Shown piece by piece: positions 1 to 63,285 of a stretch of 64,000 nt of DNA. Location: the IMG/VR virus record IMGVR_UViG_3300008516_000951, positions 1 through 64,000 of that record; one strand, given 5' to 3'. Below the pieces are notes generated by a model. It did not search any database, was not told where the DNA came from, and saw only the letters and a list, made by a program, of their open reading frames with translations. How positions within the stretch are numbered: the first letter of the stretch is position 1; every line of letters begins with the position of its first letter. Source of the DNA: a virus. A program made the translations under genes and the position numbers.

Positions 1-40
1 CGGCCCGCCGGTCCGACTCCGGCACGGGGCTTTAACTAAT
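1..40 (+). repeat. 40-bp GC-rich direct repeat, copy 1
   Basis: These 40 bases recur exactly at 1972-2011. The copy may begin before the window edge. It contains a perfect 5-bp stem GCCGG/CCGGC around the 7-base loop TCCGACT, then ACGGGGC and TTTAACTAA. The stem, loop and following seven bases look like a tRNA T-arm plus the 3' acceptor strand, but no rest of a tRNA is visible. Both copies lie in leaders just upstream of small genes. A weak terminator or processed leader hairpin is the simpler reading. Confidence 0.8.
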
Positions 41-65
41 CAATGACCTTTTTAGGAGTAGAACA

Positions 66-2809: not shown

Positions 2810-4154
2810 GCTTTACCAATATCAAAAACAGGCCGTCAAAAGGATTCATCAGCTTAACGGACGAGTACTATTGGCTGATGAGATGGGACTCGGTAAAACT
2901 TTAGAAGGGCTTCAATGGCTCCACGAATCAAAAAACTTTCCTGCAATAGTTATCTGTCCGGCAACTCTGAAATGGCTCTGGAAAAGTGAGGCCCTTAATC
3001 ATTTAGGTATTCATAGCAGTATATTGCACGGAACAAAACCACCTAAATCTCAATTAACAAAAACACGGCGATTAACTATCCTGAATTATGACATTTTACA
3101 GTATTGGGAAGGCTACATAAAATCAATAAAACCCAAGACGTTAATCATCGATGAATGCCATTTTACCAAGACACGAGGCGCTTTACGAAGCCGAATCACA
3201 AAAAGACTTTCCCGGTCGATTCCCTACATAATAGCTATGAGCGGAACACCACTTACCAACCGACCATCTGAATTATGGAATATCCTCAATATAATCAGGC
3301 CGGACCTATATCCAAATTTTATCACATACGCTTTTCAATACTGCAAACCTACAAGGCGGCCCTGGGGATGGGAATACAAAGGTGCAAACAATCTAAAAGA
3401 ATTGCACCGAAAACTTTCAGAATCAATGATGATAAGGCGTTTGAAAAAAAAAGTGCTGCAAGAACTGCCTGACAAAATCCGCTCAGTCATCCCAATGAAA
3501 ACAAAACATCTAAAGACATATCGTGATGCTGAAAATGATTTCATAAACTGGCTCACCAAACAATCTATCACAAAAGCCAACCGAGCTAAAAGAGCGGAGC
3601 GATTAGTTCAAATGGGTTATCTAAAAAGACTCGCGGCAAGGATGAAAATGAAATTGGTTTTGAGATGGGTCAAAGATTTTTTGGACAACACCAATAAAAA
3701 ACTCGTTATATTCGCAATACACAGAAAAATCATCGAACGCATTCACAATCAATTCCCAAAATCCGTAGTGATAGACGGGAGGACATCAGACAGAAAAAGG
3801 CAGCAAGCTATTTACAATTTCCAACATAACCCCAATATACGTTTATTTATAGGTAACATTCACGCGGCAGGGCACGGAATTACACTTACAGCATCTCATA
3901 CATTAGCCTTTATAGAATTAGACTGGGTCCCGGGAAATCTCATACAAGCTGAGGACCGTATCCATCGTATAGGGCAGAAAGAATCGGTTATTATCTATTA
4001 TCTAATAACAAAGGGGACCATCGAGGAAAAGCTCTGCAAAATAATCCAACACAAACAAAACATTGTATCAAGCACGCTCGATGGAAATGAAAACGTCAAT
4101 CAATTAAGCGTCTATAACGAATTGGAACGGATGCTACGAAAGAGATTAAAATGA
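2796..4154 (+). CDS. SNF2-family DNA helicase/ATPase, 452 aa
   Basis: All core superfamily 2 motifs are present: LADEMGLGKT (about 26-35), DECH (119-122), SGTP (149-152), and near the C-terminus the block AAGHGITLTASH with QAEDRIHRIGQ, which is diagnostic for SNF2/RapA-like ATPases. Length fits a phage minimal helicase with no accessory domain. It overlaps the preceding gene by 14 bases. A role in remodelling DNA at replication or recombination forks is usual for such phage enzymes. Confidence 0.9.
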   Translation: MQSTELYQYQKQAVKRIHQLNGRVLLADEMGLGKTLEGLQWLHESKNFPAIVICPATLKWLWKSEALNHLGIHSSILHGTKPPKSQLTKTRRLTILNYDILQYWEGYIKSIKPKTLIIDECHFTKTRGALRSRITKRLSRSIPYIIAMSGTPLTNRPSELWNILNIIRPDLYPNFITYAFQYCKPTRRPWGWEYKGANNLKELHRKLSESMMIRRLKKKVLQELPDKIRSVIPMKTKHLKTYRDAENDFINWLTKQSITKANRAKRAERLVQMGYLKRLAARMKMKLVLRWVKDFLDNTNKKLVIFAIHRKIIERIHNQFPKSVVIDGRTSDRKRQQAIYNFQHNPNIRLFIGNIHAAGHGITLTASHTLAFIELDWVPGNLIQAEDRIHRIGQKESVIIYYLITKGTIEEKLCKIIQHKQNIVSSTLDGNENVNQLSVYNELERMLRKRLK

Positions 4155-7849: not shown

Positions 7850-8080
7850 ATGAGCGAGCAAATAACCATATATCGGGTAAGTTGCCGAGCTTGCGGCAAG
7901 ATGTTCAAAGGGGCTTCTCAAGAAGAAGCGGACAAGGCCCATAAGCAGCATGTTGACAATGATTGTGAGACTATCAAAGTATTGAAGAAGGTTGAGTCGT
8001 TTCGCAAGAAGGCCATTAAGATACTGGGCCGAGAGCTTACTTTTAGAGAAGCAACAAAGTTACTCGATTTTGACAAGTGA
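7850..8080 (+). CDS. Small zinc-finger-like protein, 76 aa
   Basis: Cys12 and Cys15 (SCRACGK), then His residues around 31-34 and a Cys near 39, give a C-x2-C...H-x3-H...C pattern likely to bind zinc. The rest is a basic helix and a short C-terminal helix ending FDK. It is the first gene after promoter P1. GAAATG at the start gives only a weak SD. It may be a DNA- or RNA-binding regulator. Confidence 0.6.
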   Translation: MSEQITIYRVSCRACGKMFKGASQEEADKAHKQHVDNDCETIKVLKKVESFRKKAIKILGRELTFREATKLLDFDK

Positions 8081-8102
8081 TGATTTCAATTGAAAAGGAG
8101 TA

Positions 8103-8240: not shown

Positions 8241-8283
8241 GAAGAATTTTGACAAGTGATGATTTCAATTGAAAAGGTAAGAA

Positions 8284-57669: not shown

Positions 57670-58725
57670 TCAAACAGAAGCGTGGCCAATTCCGGTCGAA
57701 CCGTTTTGGTCGGCCCTCATTTGGGGAACCATAATGTTCATAACTTTGAAGTTGACTTGAAGGCCGCCGAATGAATCCCACTGAACCGTAGTGGTATTCA
57801 TACCGATTACTTCGCGTACAACATCAGCAGTCATTTGAACCATCAGAATATCATAATTCTGCAACCAATCCGATGTATTCAAACTTACAAAATCCCCAAC
57901 AGAAAGAATACGTTCACGAAGTGTAGTAGCCAAAGCAGTCTTGAAGTCTTCATCAAGATACGTGTCCCAACTTGGAGCGTTGTACAGCAACCACGGGCCG
58001 TGGTAATGAATGTTTTTCATCTGCTGACGCAAACCTAACAATTCAGTTATCAATGTGCTACCAGTCCAGCCAGCAGCCGCCGGAGAAGTGAAAGTCGCTG
58101 TTCTACGCGCCGGATAGTTGGTGTAGCCATAAATAGTGCCACCACCATATACATAAGTAGATAGCCTGCCCAATAACATCTGTTCATTACTTTCAGCCAC
58201 TTTGCGGGCAGCCAGTTCGGCCATCGTTGTATCAAGCGGTGAATTACCACTACGAGAAATAGCAATCTGCCGAGCCGAAAACATAAAATCCTTATGAGTT
58301 ATTGGCAACGGTAAATTTGTCAACTCATAAACGGGACGGTCATTAGGATTATCCCTTAATCCGTCCATACTGATAGAGGCATCGTTAATGTCACTTTGCG
58401 TTTCAGTTTGGAACACTGATTTTCCCATTCCATTAGGAATGCTATAAGTCAATCCCTTCCCCAAAAGGTCGGCCACGGCACGTAATCTTTCACGAGCTAC
58501 TTTAAGAACAGCTTCGTCCAAATGTATCCAGTCGTCCTTACGCAACGTCGCTGTAGCATTAGCCGCCAAAGGCACAGCTTTGGGTTTGCTATACCTATCG
58601 TTTTGGGTGATATAACTTTTCCCATCTTTCCCAATATAGGGCCGCAAAGCATTAACATTAAAATTAGAGGCCAACAACTTACTTGCAACATCGCCACTGG
58701 CCTGACCGTTCATAATAAAATCCAT
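57670..58725 (-). CDS. Major capsid protein (HK97 fold), 351 aa
   Basis: The protein follows the protease and decoration genes and has the size and organisation of encapsulin-type capsid proteins: a long N-arm, ELTNLPLPITHKDF in the E-loop area, a helical P domain (AARKVAESNEQMLLG) and a C-terminal strand region (VNFKVMNIMVPQMRADQNG). ATG 58725 uses GAAAGGA. It forms the head shell. Confidence 0.85.
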   Translation of the reverse strand: MDFIMNGQASGDVASKLLASNFNVNALRPYIGKDGKSYITQNDRYSKPKAVPLAANATATLRKDDWIHLDEAVLKVARERLRAVADLLGKGLTYSIPNGMGKSVFQTETQSDINDASISMDGLRDNPNDRPVYELTNLPLPITHKDFMFSARQIAISRSGNSPLDTTMAELAARKVAESNEQMLLGRLSTYVYGGGTIYGYTNYPARRTATFTSPAAAGWTGSTLITELLGLRQQMKNIHYHGPWLLYNAPSWDTYLDEDFKTALATTLRERILSVGDFVSLNTSDWLQNYDILMVQMTADVVREVIGMNTTTVQWDSFGGLQVNFKVMNIMVPQMRADQNGSTGIGHASV

Positions 58726-59285: not shown

Positions 59286-60836
59286 TTAGGAATCTTCTTT
59301 TGCCCCAACAAAATCATTCACTGTCGGAGCAAGCAAAGGCTCCTCTATATACCCATCACGATTAACCACCGGAGCTTGCCCACCATAATTAGGCAAGTTC
59401 GTTACCAACTCATCATTATCTTCCTCAGCCAATACTGCAATTTGTCGAAGCTCTTCCAAATCCTTTTCCATTAACTGCTCTTTGGTAAATGTATTCTTTT
59501 CATTAGCAGTAATTTTTTCAATGACATTCGCCACATCAGCTTCATAAGATTTGATGCCGTTAATAAGCACCCTTTGTATTTTCAGAGGAAACGTCGTAAT
59601 ACATTCTTGTAATGTAGTAGGCTTCTTCTCCTCAATATTGGTTTCCACTTTGCTTTCAATATCCACTTGTTTGTCTGTCCTTTTTTCCTCTACCTTTTCC
59701 TCGGTAGCAGTCTCATCAATTACTACCTTTTCCTCGGTTTCATTGACGATGGGGACCATCTTTTCCAAGTCGCCCTTATCTATCTTCATTAGTTTCTCAC
59801 GGTCTTTTTCATCCCAATGAGTAGTCTCGTTGGTAATAAGACCATCTACAATCACTTTCTTATCCATTTCAATTTCCTTTCTATTAACCATTTCAATTGT
59901 TCCACTAAAATTAGCCACAAACGTCCCGTCTTTCGTACGATACTCTACTACACGAATAACCTCTTGAGGACCATCAGCAAATTCCACACCGCCTTCCTTG
60001 ATAACATATAATTGCTTAAACAAAGCACCGTCATTTTCATAAATGAAGAAATCATCATATACACTTTCAACATACGCATCTTCCAACTTGTCTCGCAAAA
60101 GGCTGCTCAGCAAGTTACTCGTTTCACCAAAACTCATATCCACATTCAATCTCAAAAACCCCGCCCCATCCTCTACCGAGCAAGCACCTTTCAAATCTGG
60201 CAATAAAGCCAAATGGTCCGGCCTAAAGTTTCTTGCAATAGCTTGATAAGTTTTACCATTGAATTCCCCCTCTTGACTCTCGTTATCGGTAAATAACCCG
60301 GTGGACAATTCCATAATCTTGTTATTCTCCACCGCTTCCATAATACGGTCATCCACTGCATTCATTCTATTTATTTCCATCCAAGCCTCTGCTTTCAACT
60401 TACCATCCTCAAAAGTGGTGTTCATTATCACACCAATTTTCCGATTGGTCAGAATATCCGGGTCGCACGCACTTATCGGCTGGCCATTGTATTTGGGATG
60501 ATAAACAATGACAGGTTTTGCATTCCAAACAACCGGAGTTTTAGCCATCTCATCAGCCGGGTACAATATAGGGCCCCCACTGCCATCCAATACCCCTTCC
60601 ACCATCATAATCATAGGGGCAACCAAATAATCTCTACCCTCCATCGAATCGTGTCGAACATTTCCTGTGAAATTAGCTGTGAGTTTCAACATTTGATTCT
60701 CCTTATAACCAGATGCCTTAATAGCAGCCCCCTGCTTTGCCGCCTTAGCCTTAGCACCTTCACCTATATAGCATTTACCACTCTTGCCCCACTTCCATCC
60801 TTCCTTACCATCTTTTATACATCTTTGTACTGGCAT
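59286..60836 (-). CDS. Prohead protease (DUF2213) fused to scaffold, 516 aa
   Basis: Residues 50-235 are the DUF2213 protease: PVVWNAKPVIVYHPK, GKLKAEAWMEI, IMELSTGLFTDNE and RNFRPDHLALLPDLKGACS with its Ser/His/Asp set. From about 330 a helical, Glu/Lys-rich region (ETEEKVVIDETATEEKVEEK) acts as scaffold. It cleaves itself and capsid precursors. The N-terminal 40 residues are a Cys-containing basic segment. SD GAAGGA. Confidence 0.82.
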   Translation of the reverse strand: MPVQRCIKDGKEGWKWGKSGKCYIGEGAKAKAAKQGAAIKASGYKENQMLKLTANFTGNVRHDSMEGRDYLVAPMIMMVEGVLDGSGGPILYPADEMAKTPVVWNAKPVIVYHPKYNGQPISACDPDILTNRKIGVIMNTTFEDGKLKAEAWMEINRMNAVDDRIMEAVENNKIMELSTGLFTDNESQEGEFNGKTYQAIARNFRPDHLALLPDLKGACSVEDGAGFLRLNVDMSFGETSNLLSSLLRDKLEDAYVESVYDDFFIYENDGALFKQLYVIKEGGVEFADGPQEVIRVVEYRTKDGTFVANFSGTIEMVNRKEIEMDKKVIVDGLITNETTHWDEKDREKLMKIDKGDLEKMVPIVNETEEKVVIDETATEEKVEEKRTDKQVDIESKVETNIEEKKPTTLQECITTFPLKIQRVLINGIKSYEADVANVIEKITANEKNTFTKEQLMEKDLEELRQIAVLAEEDNDELVTNLPNYGGQAPVVNRDGYIEEPLLAPTVNDFVGAKEDS

Positions 60837-61012
60837 ATATCATATCCTTCATTATTCGATAGAATACGACCAAAGAAAGAAAGTATAAAAGGATTTTTGA
60901 AGGTGAATCAGAAATGAATCACAAAACCATACAAAATATATATATATGATTTGAGAGAAAGTGCTTGAAATAGGTATATTTATCAGAAATAGGTCTAATT
61001 ACAAAAGCATCC

Positions 61013-61076
61013 AAATAAAAAAGGCTTACCAGCTATAAAAATCAGAAGATGCAAATCAAGAAAGCTGGTAAGCCTT
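61013..61076 (-). terminator. Strong intrinsic terminator of the 61.0-61.4 kb RNA
   Basis: AAGGCTTACCAGCT (61021-61034) and AGCTGGTAAGCCTT (61063-61076) pair over 14 bp without mismatch. Reading on the - strand the stem ends in AAGCCTT and runs into TTTTATTT. It would end transcripts begun at promoter P3 before the prohead protease gene unless read-through occurs. Confidence 0.75.
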
Positions 61077-61362
61077 CACTTTGGAGGAGATGTGCCGAAA
61101 AAGTTGGGGGCACATCAAGTGCTCGCATTGAGGAGGAGGAGTAGATGGGGAATAACAAAACACTCAATGGCCCCCGAACCAACCTATTTCTTCAATTGTA
61201 TGATAGCAGGTTGGGAAGGGGGAAACGCTGACAAAACCTTCCCAACCAAGAAGACATCCTTGTCTTTACATCCCGGCACGTGAGAACATCAGCAAAGCAC
61301 ATCGCCGGGCGTCCTTGAGTCCCAACGGAACACATCAGGAGAATCCCATTTCTCAAGCGTTC
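61013..61362 (-). ncRNA. Structured RNA candidate, about 350 nt
   Basis: No gene occupies 60837-61404. From P3's start point near 61362 to the terminator the - strand can form: CTTGAG/CTCAAG (61314-61319 with 61352-61357), CCCGGC/GCCGGG (61272-61277 with 61304-61309), GGTTGGGAAGG/CCTTCCCAACC (61209-61219 with 61237-61247, 11 bp), GATGTGCC/GGCACATC (61089-61096 with 61109-61116), and the terminator stem. The region 60837-61012 beyond is A+T-rich with nothing obvious. Confidence 0.55.
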
Positions 61363-61364
61363 CA

Positions 61365-61400
61365 CCTATATTATCAAATTAACTCAGTGCTTCCTGCCAA
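61365..61400 (-). promoter_or_regulatory. Repeated phage promoter element, copy P3
   Basis: Read on the - strand it starts TTGGCAGGAAGCACTGAG and ends TTTGATAATATAGG, the same element as P1 (7774) and P2 (17318). It begins 5 bases after the stop of the gpF-like gene and drives the structured region 61013-61362. Confidence 0.7.
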
Positions 61401-61404
61401 AAAT

Positions 61405-63285
61405 TTATAATAATTCTTTTCCCGCCCACACACTACGCCTTTCTATTTCTCGATAAGAACGTTTGATAGTTTTGGGACCTTCGGACTTTATACTCTTTTT
61501 CACGGCTGTTTTACCACGCTTCCCCCACAATTGACCTTTCTGTTTCATATTCTTTTCCGCAGGCATCCAACTGCAACGACAATTATGGCTTGCAACATTA
61601 TTAGCAATATAATATGATTCAGTAGTTTCTAAATTATAGATATACCCCAAATAATGAAAGGCTTTACAATGAACAATAGAAGCATTCACAAAACGAGTAT
61701 CATTACAAAGACGTCTTGCAATTTTCTTATCCCGTTGTCTATCAAAAAAATTGCAAAACTTTACAAACAAGGAATGTCTGAAAATGCTCTTTCCAAACAA
61801 TTTAATGTAAGCCGCAGTACTATACGAAATCGCCTTTTGTCCACCAATATTCATATCAGAACCCAAAGTGAAGCGGAAACGATAAAATGGGCTAATATGA
61901 ATCTGATTGCAAGAGCCAATCAAGTTAGAGCCGCACATAAAGCAAGAATCGGACAACAAGTGTCGTGGACAACCAAATGCAAACGCGCCAAGACTATTGA
62001 GAAACATCCGCCTAATAATTCGCCATACGAAATCAAACTTGCGAAAATGCTGTTGAAAAGAGGGATTAAAACTATTCCCCAAAAAGCAATTGGAGGATAT
62101 AACTGCGACCTTGCTGCCTATCCCGTCGCCGTGGAAGTCTTTGCTGGAAAGTGGCATTGGTACGGAAATCACATCGCTATTACTGAGAAACGATTCCGCT
62201 ATATCCTCAATTCTGGATGGTTTATCTATGTCGTTGCAATCAACAATTCTTTCCCTCTCACTGATGCTGTTGCACATCACCTCGCTTCCTATATCCAAAG
62301 TATTCGCAGGGACAAACCCATCAGATGTCAATATCGGGTGGTTTGGGGTGCAAACGAATTTATCACCAAAGGAAGTCTTAAAGACAAACATATCTCCATC
62401 ATACCACCGTTTACTAACACCCGTGATTCCACCACCGGGCGTTACAAGCGAATCAGGAGGTAAGCAATTCGGATGTCGAGGAATTAAACCACGTGCCTCC
62501 TTAACTGTCATCACCACACCCTCTAAATCCCCACACAAAGGGCACACCCTATCATCCCCAACCGTACTCCACTCGGCCATTACCGTTATCTCTTTCACAC
62601 CCAAATGTTCAAACGCATCCAATTGTCCTTCGGCGTGGGCGTGTATGATTTCAGTGCGGGCCAAGGTTAAAGCCCTGGTGTTAGTAATTTTAGTAACGTT
62701 GTTTCTCAACTCTCGTGCTATCTTTCTTGGACTATAACCCTTAACCAAACCCTCACTTAATATCCGGGACATTTGCTGACTCATCGATGATGTAACACCT
62801 TTCAATTCTTCAAACGTACGGGTGCTCAGTAATTCGATTTTATTCAACAATTCCGGGGCGTCAAATGCAGTCCGTAGAAATTCAGCCTTACCACCCAAGA
62901 AAAACTCATCACCTTCCATAGCCAACTCAGCAGCACGTAAATCAGTGTAAGCCCTCAACCCACCTTTGCGATAAGCTGATTCAACATAAGTGCCTGTCCA
63001 AGGTTTTCCTGTTATAGCATCAGTAGTCAATATCTTGGCGTCAATTTGTTGCTGGAGCCATTTCTGATATGCCTGGGCCTTTTGGGCAGATGTATTGAAA
63101 CGCCAAGCCTGCCTCTCCTGCAAAATGGCCAATTCCTTTCGCTCCTCCAATCCAAAGACATCGTCGGTTACTATCAACGTTTGGATAGCTTTGGATACAC
63201 TTTTGAATCGGCGTTTCATATCGGCACAGAATTTACGCCGAAGCAAGGTGGTCCTCGTCGGGTCACGTTTGAGTTGGTTAGGCAT
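61405..63285 (-). CDS. Mu gpF-like head morphogenesis protein interrupted by an intein, 626 aa precursor
   Basis: The flanking sequences (1-273 and 569-626) form a Mu gpF/SPP1 gp7-like minor head protein: TLARTEIIHAHAEGQLDAFE, then zinc ligands CPLC (248-251), HPN(271-273) joined to CRC after splicing. Between them lies a complete intein, residues 274-568. The gene starts in a TAATG overlap with the 49-aa Gly-rich protein. The mature protein would be 331 aa, normal for the family. It should act at the portal during head assembly. Confidence 0.9.
   Translation of the reverse strand: MPNQLKRDPTRTTLLRRKFCADMKRRFKSVSKAIQTLIVTDDVFGLEERKELAILQERQAWRFNTSAQKAQAYQKWLQQQIDAKILTTDAITGKPWTGTYVESAYRKGGLRAYTDLRAAELAMEGDEFFLGGKAEFLRTAFDAPELLNKIELLSTRTFEELKGVTSSMSQQMSRILSEGLVKGYSPRKIARELRNNVTKITNTRALTLARTEIIHAHAEGQLDAFEHLGVKEITVMAEWSTVGDDRVCPLCGDLEGVVMTVKEARGLIPRHPNCLPPDSLVTPGGGITGVSKRWYDGDMFVFKTSFGDKFVCTPNHPILTSDGFVPANTLDIGSEVMCNSISERERIVDCNDIDKPSRIEDIAESFLSNSDVISVPMPLSSKDFHGDGIGSKVAVISSNCFLGNSFNPSFQQHFRKFDFVWRIIRRMFLNSLGAFAFGCPRHLLSDSCFMCGSNLIGSCNQIHISPFYRFRFTLGSDMNIGGQKAISYSTAAYIKLFGKSIFRHSLFVKFCNFFDRQRDKKIARRLCNDTRFVNASIVHCKAFHYLGYIYNLETTESYYIANNVASHNCRCSWMPAEKNMKQKGQLWGKRGKTAVKKSIKSEGPKTIKRSYREIERRSVWAGKELL
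61582..62466 (-). mobile_element. Intein (295 codons) whose centre holds an antisense endonuclease gene
   Basis: Splicing motifs are complete: block A begins at Cys274 (CLPPDSLVTPGG), block B is TPNH (313-316, His316), block F is GYIYNLETTESYYIANN, and block G is VASHN with His567 and Asn568, followed by Cys569. No LAGLIDADG or HNH motif is seen in residues 345-540. That segment is antisense to the + strand gene at 61669. Inserted in the HPNC/RC zinc motif. Confidence 0.9.
61669..62463 (+). CDS. Antisense homing endonuclease (Vsr/EDxHD-like), 264 aa
   Basis: It begins at ATG 61669, 7 bases after the phage-type SD GAAAGG (61656-61661); an ATG at 61654 lacks an SD. Residues 26-60 form a helix-turn-helix (SENALSKQFNVSRSTIRNRL). 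The core SPYEIKLAKMLLKRG (Glu121), GYNCDLA (Asp147), VAVEVFAGKWHW (Glu156, His163) and RYILNSGWFIYVVAI match the EDxHD/Vsr nuclease pattern. It ends at TAA one codon inside the intein. Its codons align in register with the intein codons on the other strand. Confidence 0.8.
   Translation: MNNRSIHKTSIITKTSCNFLIPLSIKKIAKLYKQGMSENALSKQFNVSRSTIRNRLLSTNIHIRTQSEAETIKWANMNLIARANQVRAAHKARIGQQVSWTTKCKRAKTIEKHPPNNSPYEIKLAKMLLKRGIKTIPQKAIGGYNCDLAAYPVAVEVFAGKWHWYGNHIAITEKRFRYILNSGWFIYVVAINNSFPLTDAVAHHLASYIQSIRRDKPIRCQYRVVWGANEFITKGSLKDKHISIIPPFTNTRDSTTGRYKRIRR

Follow-up and report, generated by a model that had tools for sequence, protein, structure and literature searches.

Analysis of a 64.0-kb stretch of DNA (the window), taken from a 67.9-kb virus record, identified a unit between two phage head genes. 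In all likelihood, it represents a phage form, increased in size, of an anti-Shine-Dalgarno (aSD) element that is conserved in Planctomycetota and was not found in the databases and literature searched. The element has the layout UUUUCAUCACCCUCCUCC-GAA followed by a terminator hairpin and a U-run, and occurs in dozens of viral contigs and at least 117 GTDB contigs. We lean, with a little better than even confidence, toward the view that the window holds a phage small-RNA gene, an enlarged and diverged sibling of this element, whose RNA would pair in trans with Shine-Dalgarno sequences.

The unit is located in a block of minus-strand head genes comprising the portal (C-terminal part), a MuF head protein with an intein (61405–63285; Pfam Phage_Mu_F, E 5.5e-11; Intein_splicing, E 9e-5, under Pfam's cut-off), a DUF2213 prohead-protease-like protein (59286–60836; Pfam DUF2213, E 2e-8), a 142-aa protein and a DUF6260 capsid-like protein (57670–58725). 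The gap between the upstream MuF gene and the downstream protease gene spans 568 bases without a convincing gene and reads, on the minus strand, from the MuF stop codon through the promoter-like element P3, about 350 nt of non-coding sequence, a 14-bp terminator with a U6 run and an AT-rich leader to the protease. No plausible gene was found on the RNA strand, where the longest frames encode 57 and 46 aa and both lack a Shine-Dalgarno site, in agreement with the original prediction that about 350 nt are gene-free. We assigned the proposed small-RNA gene of about 350 nt to positions 61017–61365 of the minus strand, with the 5′ end of the RNA probably just downstream of P3. The predicted boundaries (P3 to terminator) and the position of the terminator ahead of the prohead protease both stood. 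The prediction carried no strand; the minus strand follows from the promoter, the U-run and the gene order, whereas folding does not set it, the plus strand folding as strikingly (z −5.5).

The intein region of the MuF gene also contains an antisense 269-aa frame (window 61654–62463, plus strand) with a helix-turn-helix and a weak restriction-endonuclease-like match. Homologues of this frame were detected by tblastn in 127 phage records, 74 of them spanning at least 80% of its length, and in the two records examined the gene annotated there is the head protein on the opposite strand. The frame seems to encode an endonuclease of wide occurrence, placed antisense within a MuF intein. Near the start of the record, near-identical 43-bp repeats occupy window positions 1–43 and 1972–2014.

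The promoter-like element P3, TTGGCAGGAAGCACTGAGTTAATTTGATAATA, maps to 61369–61400 on the minus strand and can alternatively be read as GGCAG-N17-TGATAATATA, the form common to kin phages. It was predicted to be a repeated promoter, and the window indeed contains three copies (+7774, +17317 and −61400) compared to none expected in shuffles; AG-N17-YGATAATA occurred in the window only at these same three places. P3 aligns with the kin promoters immediately after the MuF stop codon, and the promoters under comparison read GGCAG-N17-TGAT in the window, T-T-A/T/C-AG-N17-Y-GAT in kin phages and TAAAG-N17/18-CGAT at the Planctomycetota element. A sigma-54 reading of P3 was ruled out by its spacing, as judged by eye. 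The copies at +7774 and +17317 are located just past the stop codons of replication-region genes and ahead of the next gene, a placement suggesting that synthesis of the RNA may accompany expression of those genes and not be restricted to the late phase. Elsewhere on the plus strand, exact 32-bp repeats TTTTGACAAGTGATGATTTCAATTGAAAAGG(A/T) at 8067–8098 and 8246–8277 precede small genes and possibly represent a second promoter or regulatory type.

The multiple stems of up to 14 bp that had been claimed were confirmed, with stems of 14 bp (61021–61034/61063–61076), 11 bp (61209–61219/61237–61247), 8 bp (61089–61096/61109–61116) and 7 bp (61126–61132/61163–61169). The whole RNA on the minus strand folded with z −3.9, with no shuffle equally good. 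In 120-nt segments, the folding excess came solely from the terminator end (z −6.9 and −3.5), and the middle stems at 61120–61360 were near chance (z about −0.8 to −1.4); these stems are real complementarities that are no stabler than those of shuffles. The original prediction of a novel structured RNA stands for the overall fold and for a real, gene-sized non-coding unit, but the middle is not exceptional and has no recognisable relative, and the label misses the point of interest, the probable kinship with an aSD element. The unit is better described by its conserved part, a single-stranded aSD stretch joined to a terminator, than as a "large structured RNA".

The perfect 11-bp hairpin GGTTGGGAAGG/CCTTCCCAACC (61209–61247) has a counterpart in kin phages, where a comparable G/A-rich hairpin precedes the motif. 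In the predicted fold, a 7-bp hairpin, CATTGAG/CTCAATG (61126–61169), displays in its loop aSD stretch 1, CUCCUCCUCCUC (61130–61141), with a mean unpaired probability of 0.92. The second stretch, CUCCUCC (61083–61089), is located directly upstream of the terminator, 6 nt before its stem, as in the family, where the motif lies upstream of a hairpin; its unpaired probability in the predicted fold is only 0.44. Altogether, CTCCTCC occurs in the RNA in three overlapping copies, compared to 0.02 expected in shuffles. The intrinsic terminator (61017–61076) consists of a 14-bp stem, a 28-nt loop and U6. Beyond it, the AT-rich protease leader (60837–61012) carries tandem ACCTATTTC repeats (60967–60975 and 60985–60994) complementary to RNA positions 61182–61191; this 10-nt complementarity is expected at about 5% by chance, and the association of the repeats with the RNA is uncertain.

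No Rfam family matched the window, in line with the original statement that no known RNA corresponds to the unit, and weak scores to sRNA41, ar14, ylbH and miRNA families were all far under threshold and treated as chance. A tRNA reading was dismissed, ARAGORN finding none in the window, though some kin phages have tRNAs in the same gap. Rfam searches of the window, kin and host loci together returned only tRNAs.

Searches with the capsid and protease proteins yielded some 150 related loci from viruses, among which many overlap as parts of one contig. In these relatives, the MuF–protease gap is a variable slot of a few bases to several kb with differing inserts; locus L011, for instance, carries a tRNA there, and the inserts observed range from tRNA or tRNA-like genes to small frames and hairpins (L014 4409–5861; L011 3821–7251; L038 4300–4460). 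No sequence relative of the whole window RNA was found among 173 loci beyond the same virus, nor among 50,697 phage records, in which the canonical motif alone was also not found. Inspection of the gaps revealed that in several relatives a strong terminator is immediately preceded by CTCCTCC, with the consensus TTTTCATCACCCTCCTCC. In 2.07 Mb of loci, the exact string TTCATCAC[C/T]CTCCTCC was confined to L011, L018, L031 and L112/L115, with a hairpin following every occurrence.

Five kin loci (L234, L019, L120, L115 and L112) carry the element in the same slot after MuF as the window. Their parts follow in the order promoter, one or two hairpins, CU-rich motif, terminator and protease, with a promoter of the form AG-N17-(C/T)GATAATA, or close to it, after MuF. 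The L019 unit begins about 100 nt past another terminator, and the protease of L120 has the most similar segment found outside the same virus (67%). An alignment of the complete window RNA with the five kin units was convincing only at the promoter and the 3′ end. This repeated layout supports the earlier claim that the unit is discrete, bounded by a promoter-like element and a terminator that belong to it. In another locus, L071, a copy matched by model R2 (described below) at 3337–3391 is located just upstream, not downstream, of MuF (23.6 bits, E 0.003).

To define the element outside this phage group, IMG/VR was scanned for exact copies of the motif, giving 77 stretches with 56 distinct copies, and GTDB representatives were scanned with the 21-mer TTTTCATCACCCTCCTCCGAA, giving at least 117 contigs; the exactness of the motif in both sets is by construction, since it was the search key, and the stems are located outside the key. 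A U-tailed hairpin of at least 8 bp was found within 5 nt of 44 of the 56 viral copies, compared to 0.27% of random positions; the IMG/VR query itself required TTT downstream, which accounts for a small part of this excess. Among the matches listed, the titles assign 114 of the 117 GTDB contigs to Planctomycetota, for the most part to Phycisphaerae and Sedimentisphaerales, and the others belong to two Patescibacteria MAGs and one Nanoarchaeota MAG. The 16-mer is present in 1–3 copies per genome in ten genomes. The hairpin next to the motif showed two-sided changes in 10 of 11 pairs, with 91% of the cells pairing, and its covariation (0.709) exceeded that of shuffled alignments (0.188) and of slid ones (at most 0.271). 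The original prediction had named relatives lacking covariation or the promoter/terminator pair as evidence against the unit; for the 3′ module, none were found. Shine-Dalgarno sequences can pair with CUCCUCC, their complement, and the 3′ tail of 16S rRNA is similar to AUCACC..CUCC. Among the lower-scoring copies found by model, CUCCUCC was kept in nearly all and the flanks varied.

A promoter-like pair of boxes, TAAAG-N-CGAT, was detected upstream of the element in 86 of 115 host loci, compared to 0.6% in shuffles, and its spacing was only 17 or 18, though 12–22 was allowed. We take this arrangement to resemble a sigma-28-type promoter with a slightly longer spacer. In about 69 host loci the upstream neighbour comes from one family, divergently oriented in most, which from the sequences is presumably PanB (panB). 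Of 298 genomes of the class, 54 were matched by the strict model R1, as were 11 of 392 taken from across the phylum, some of these matches being weak, indicating that the element belongs to part of the class. An example among the GTDB loci (L251–L367) is L262, with the motif at 2746–2766. In the Patescibacteria MAGs (L274 2690–2710 and 3785–3805; L346), the motif and hairpin flank a look-alike of a REP-associated (IS200-like) transposase gene, which suggests a mobile form of the element. The element matched no Rfam family, and a literature search for the motif letters returned unrelated papers only; the aSD-terminator element is thus apparently undescribed in Rfam or in the literature searched.

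Does the window RNA belong to this element? The full motif UUUUCAUCACCCUCCUCCGAA is absent from the window RNA, and R1 aligned there with the terminator part only (9.2 bits, E 0.45). A second, broader model, R2, built from 27 diverged copies and kin with the window left out, ranked window positions 61105–61017 on the minus strand first in the 64 kb (20.9 bits, E 0.0016, a rough value), matching the terminator together with aSD stretch 2, which it aligned to the family motif, and pairing CUUUUUCGGCACAUCUCCUCC with CUUUUCAUCACCCUCCUCC. In 560 kb of other relatives, R2 gave a single match under E 0.1. Two kin loci outside the R1 training set, L019 and L120, matched R1 with E-values of 2.5e-8 and 1.7e-5. 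The window RNA is therefore a probable, not a proven, diverged member of the element as far as these alignments go, because R1 failed, both models give only rough E-values, and the resemblance was already known when R2 was built. Compared to the element, the window RNA is longer and has several further stems and a second, longer CU-rich stretch, CUCCUCCUCCUC, in a hairpin loop.

Bacterial small RNAs with comparable parts are known in Alphaproteobacteria, in another phylum. The alpha-r14/cuckoo sRNAs carry an ultraconserved aSD motif, CCUCCUCCC, in unpaired regions while their stems differ highly (PMC10746234). The open position of the motif in these RNAs (NfeR1) and the related CcsR RNAs resembles that of stretch 1 of the window RNA in its loop; however, alpha-r14/cuckoo has three hairpins with an identical motif in each, whereas the window RNA carries a single copy in a loop and another ahead of the terminator. 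A third aSD hairpin with CCUCCUCCC was not found in the window RNA, which has the one loop with CUCCUCCUCCUC, and the Rfam ar14 model scored 16.8 bits on the window against a threshold of 58.8. The alphaR8 sRNAs combine a single-stranded UUUCCUCCCU with a Rho-independent terminator and act on mRNAs by pairing (PMC12559287). In the Caulobacter members SisA–D, UUUCCUCCCU is located downstream of a weak hairpin and is followed by the terminator, parts similar to those of the Planctomycetota element, but the motif sequence and the phylum are different; the UUUCCUCCCU core is absent from the window RNA, and Rfam gave no match. The Planctomycetota element has the parts of alphaR8 with the conservation pattern of alpha-r14/cuckoo. 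Among phage RNAs, the anti-sRNAs AsxR and AgvB (cited in PMC12559287) and other phage-encoded sRNAs (review PMC12197685) are small RNA genes that act on host RNA networks. AsxR and AgvB are enterobacterial and act on other sRNAs, whereas the window motif would target ribosome sites. The original prediction had also compared the unit with phi29 pRNA, GOLLD and ROOL. These are large phage-associated RNAs, of which pRNA is tied to head functions; the window RNA gave no Rfam match of any kind.

Action in trans by pairing with ribosome sites is, by analogy with these systems, the most likely mode of the window RNA. In the proposed mechanism, P3 would start a minus-strand transcript of about 350 nt ending at the 14-bp terminator. 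The 3′ module, a CU-rich aSD stretch before a terminator hairpin, would be a diverged member of the Planctomycetota and viral element, and the enlarged RNA would show a second CU-rich stretch in a loop. The exposed CUCCUCC stretches could then pair with Shine-Dalgarno sites in mRNAs of the host or the phage, so that translation of these mRNAs is reduced or redirected, with the host copy acting in parallel or being replaced. The analysis shows the parts, the open stretch 1, the family with its covariation, distribution and synteny, and the position in kin phages, whereas transcription, pairing, its effect on translation, the targets and the host are inferred. A crude test of stretch 1 against 77 start regions of the phage gave no excess pairing relative to shuffled motifs (z −0.8); the RNA may accordingly act on mRNAs of the host or on only a few of the phage's own, or the hypothesis itself may be mistaken. 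A related capsid protein was found in 1 of 298 genomes of the class, on a short contig, which is uninformative about the host. A broader scenario, which we hold to be less likely than not, is that Phycisphaerae phages repeatedly captured a conserved host sRNA gene with its promoter type, its 16S-tail-like motif AUCACC..CUCC and its terminator, and that this phage enlarged the gene to a 350-nt multi-aSD RNA changing which mRNAs host ribosomes start on.

Several features of the unit could be read in other ways. The phage copies keep the host motif exactly while their stems differ, and the window RNA is long and multi-site, as might be expected of a decoy or sponge that mimics the host element and competes for its mRNA targets or an RNA-binding protein, or titrates host RNAs, instead of itself regulating defined mRNAs; precedents are AsxR, AgvB and a sponge RNA whose targets are CU-rich sRNAs (PMC12559287). 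The phage RNA, however, has the host's CU-rich strand and not its complement, which makes sponging of the host RNA by pairing impossible, and we consider a decoy unlikely. The position between co-oriented head genes, the terminator ahead of the protease, and the 10-nt stretch complementary to the two protease-leader repeats would also suit an element acting only in cis, in which promoter, spacer and terminator insulate the head genes or set protease expression as an attenuator or leader. Insulation would hardly call for a dedicated promoter driving about 350 nt up to a terminator, the CU-rich motif persists at unrelated positions in genomes although the stems change freely, and in bacterial genomes the element stands as its own unit, divergent from panB; a role purely in cis is therefore rather improbable. 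The presence of a promoter and the conservation of the motif without that of the stems likewise weaken the reading as a bare terminator. Between the original alternatives of an own transcript and a long leader, the discrete unit is supported, but the strong terminator between the RNA and the protease makes a leader of the head genes unlikely.

The failure of R1 on the window, the modest R2 match, and the involvement of only about 25 of 350 nt in an RNA whose composition is CU-rich in places would be consistent with accidental CU-rich stretches in an unrelated phage RNA of another type. Such a coincidence seems a poor explanation given that R2 ranked the unit first in 64 kb, on the correct strand and in the correct place, that two separate CU-rich sites are present with three CTCCTCC copies against 0.02 expected, and that a clear element occupies the same slot in kin phages. 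Finally, the CU-rich stretch could mirror a Shine-Dalgarno site on the opposite strand that serves a small protein: the plus strand of the window has GAGGAGGAGGAGTAGATG followed by 28 codons, and canonical copies of the element read GGAGGAGGGTGATGAA there. Reverse frames are short, however, with medians of 11 codons among the 121 host copies and 29 codons among the 55 phage copies, and both the U-run and the promoter are located on the motif strand, so we strongly disfavour a plus-strand product.

Taken together, our analysis describes the Planctomycetota element as gene-like: a genome has one to a few copies, the motif and the promoter are conserved, and in Phycisphaerae the element is syntenic with panB. 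It is also present in many viral contigs, at several genomic positions. It offers an entry to RNA regulation in Planctomycetota, a phylum with almost no sRNA work in the literature searched. The window RNA provides a testable case of a phage using an aSD RNA, which would show the same solution outside Alphaproteobacteria. If this holds true, the motif could help to assign uncultured phages to Phycisphaerae hosts.
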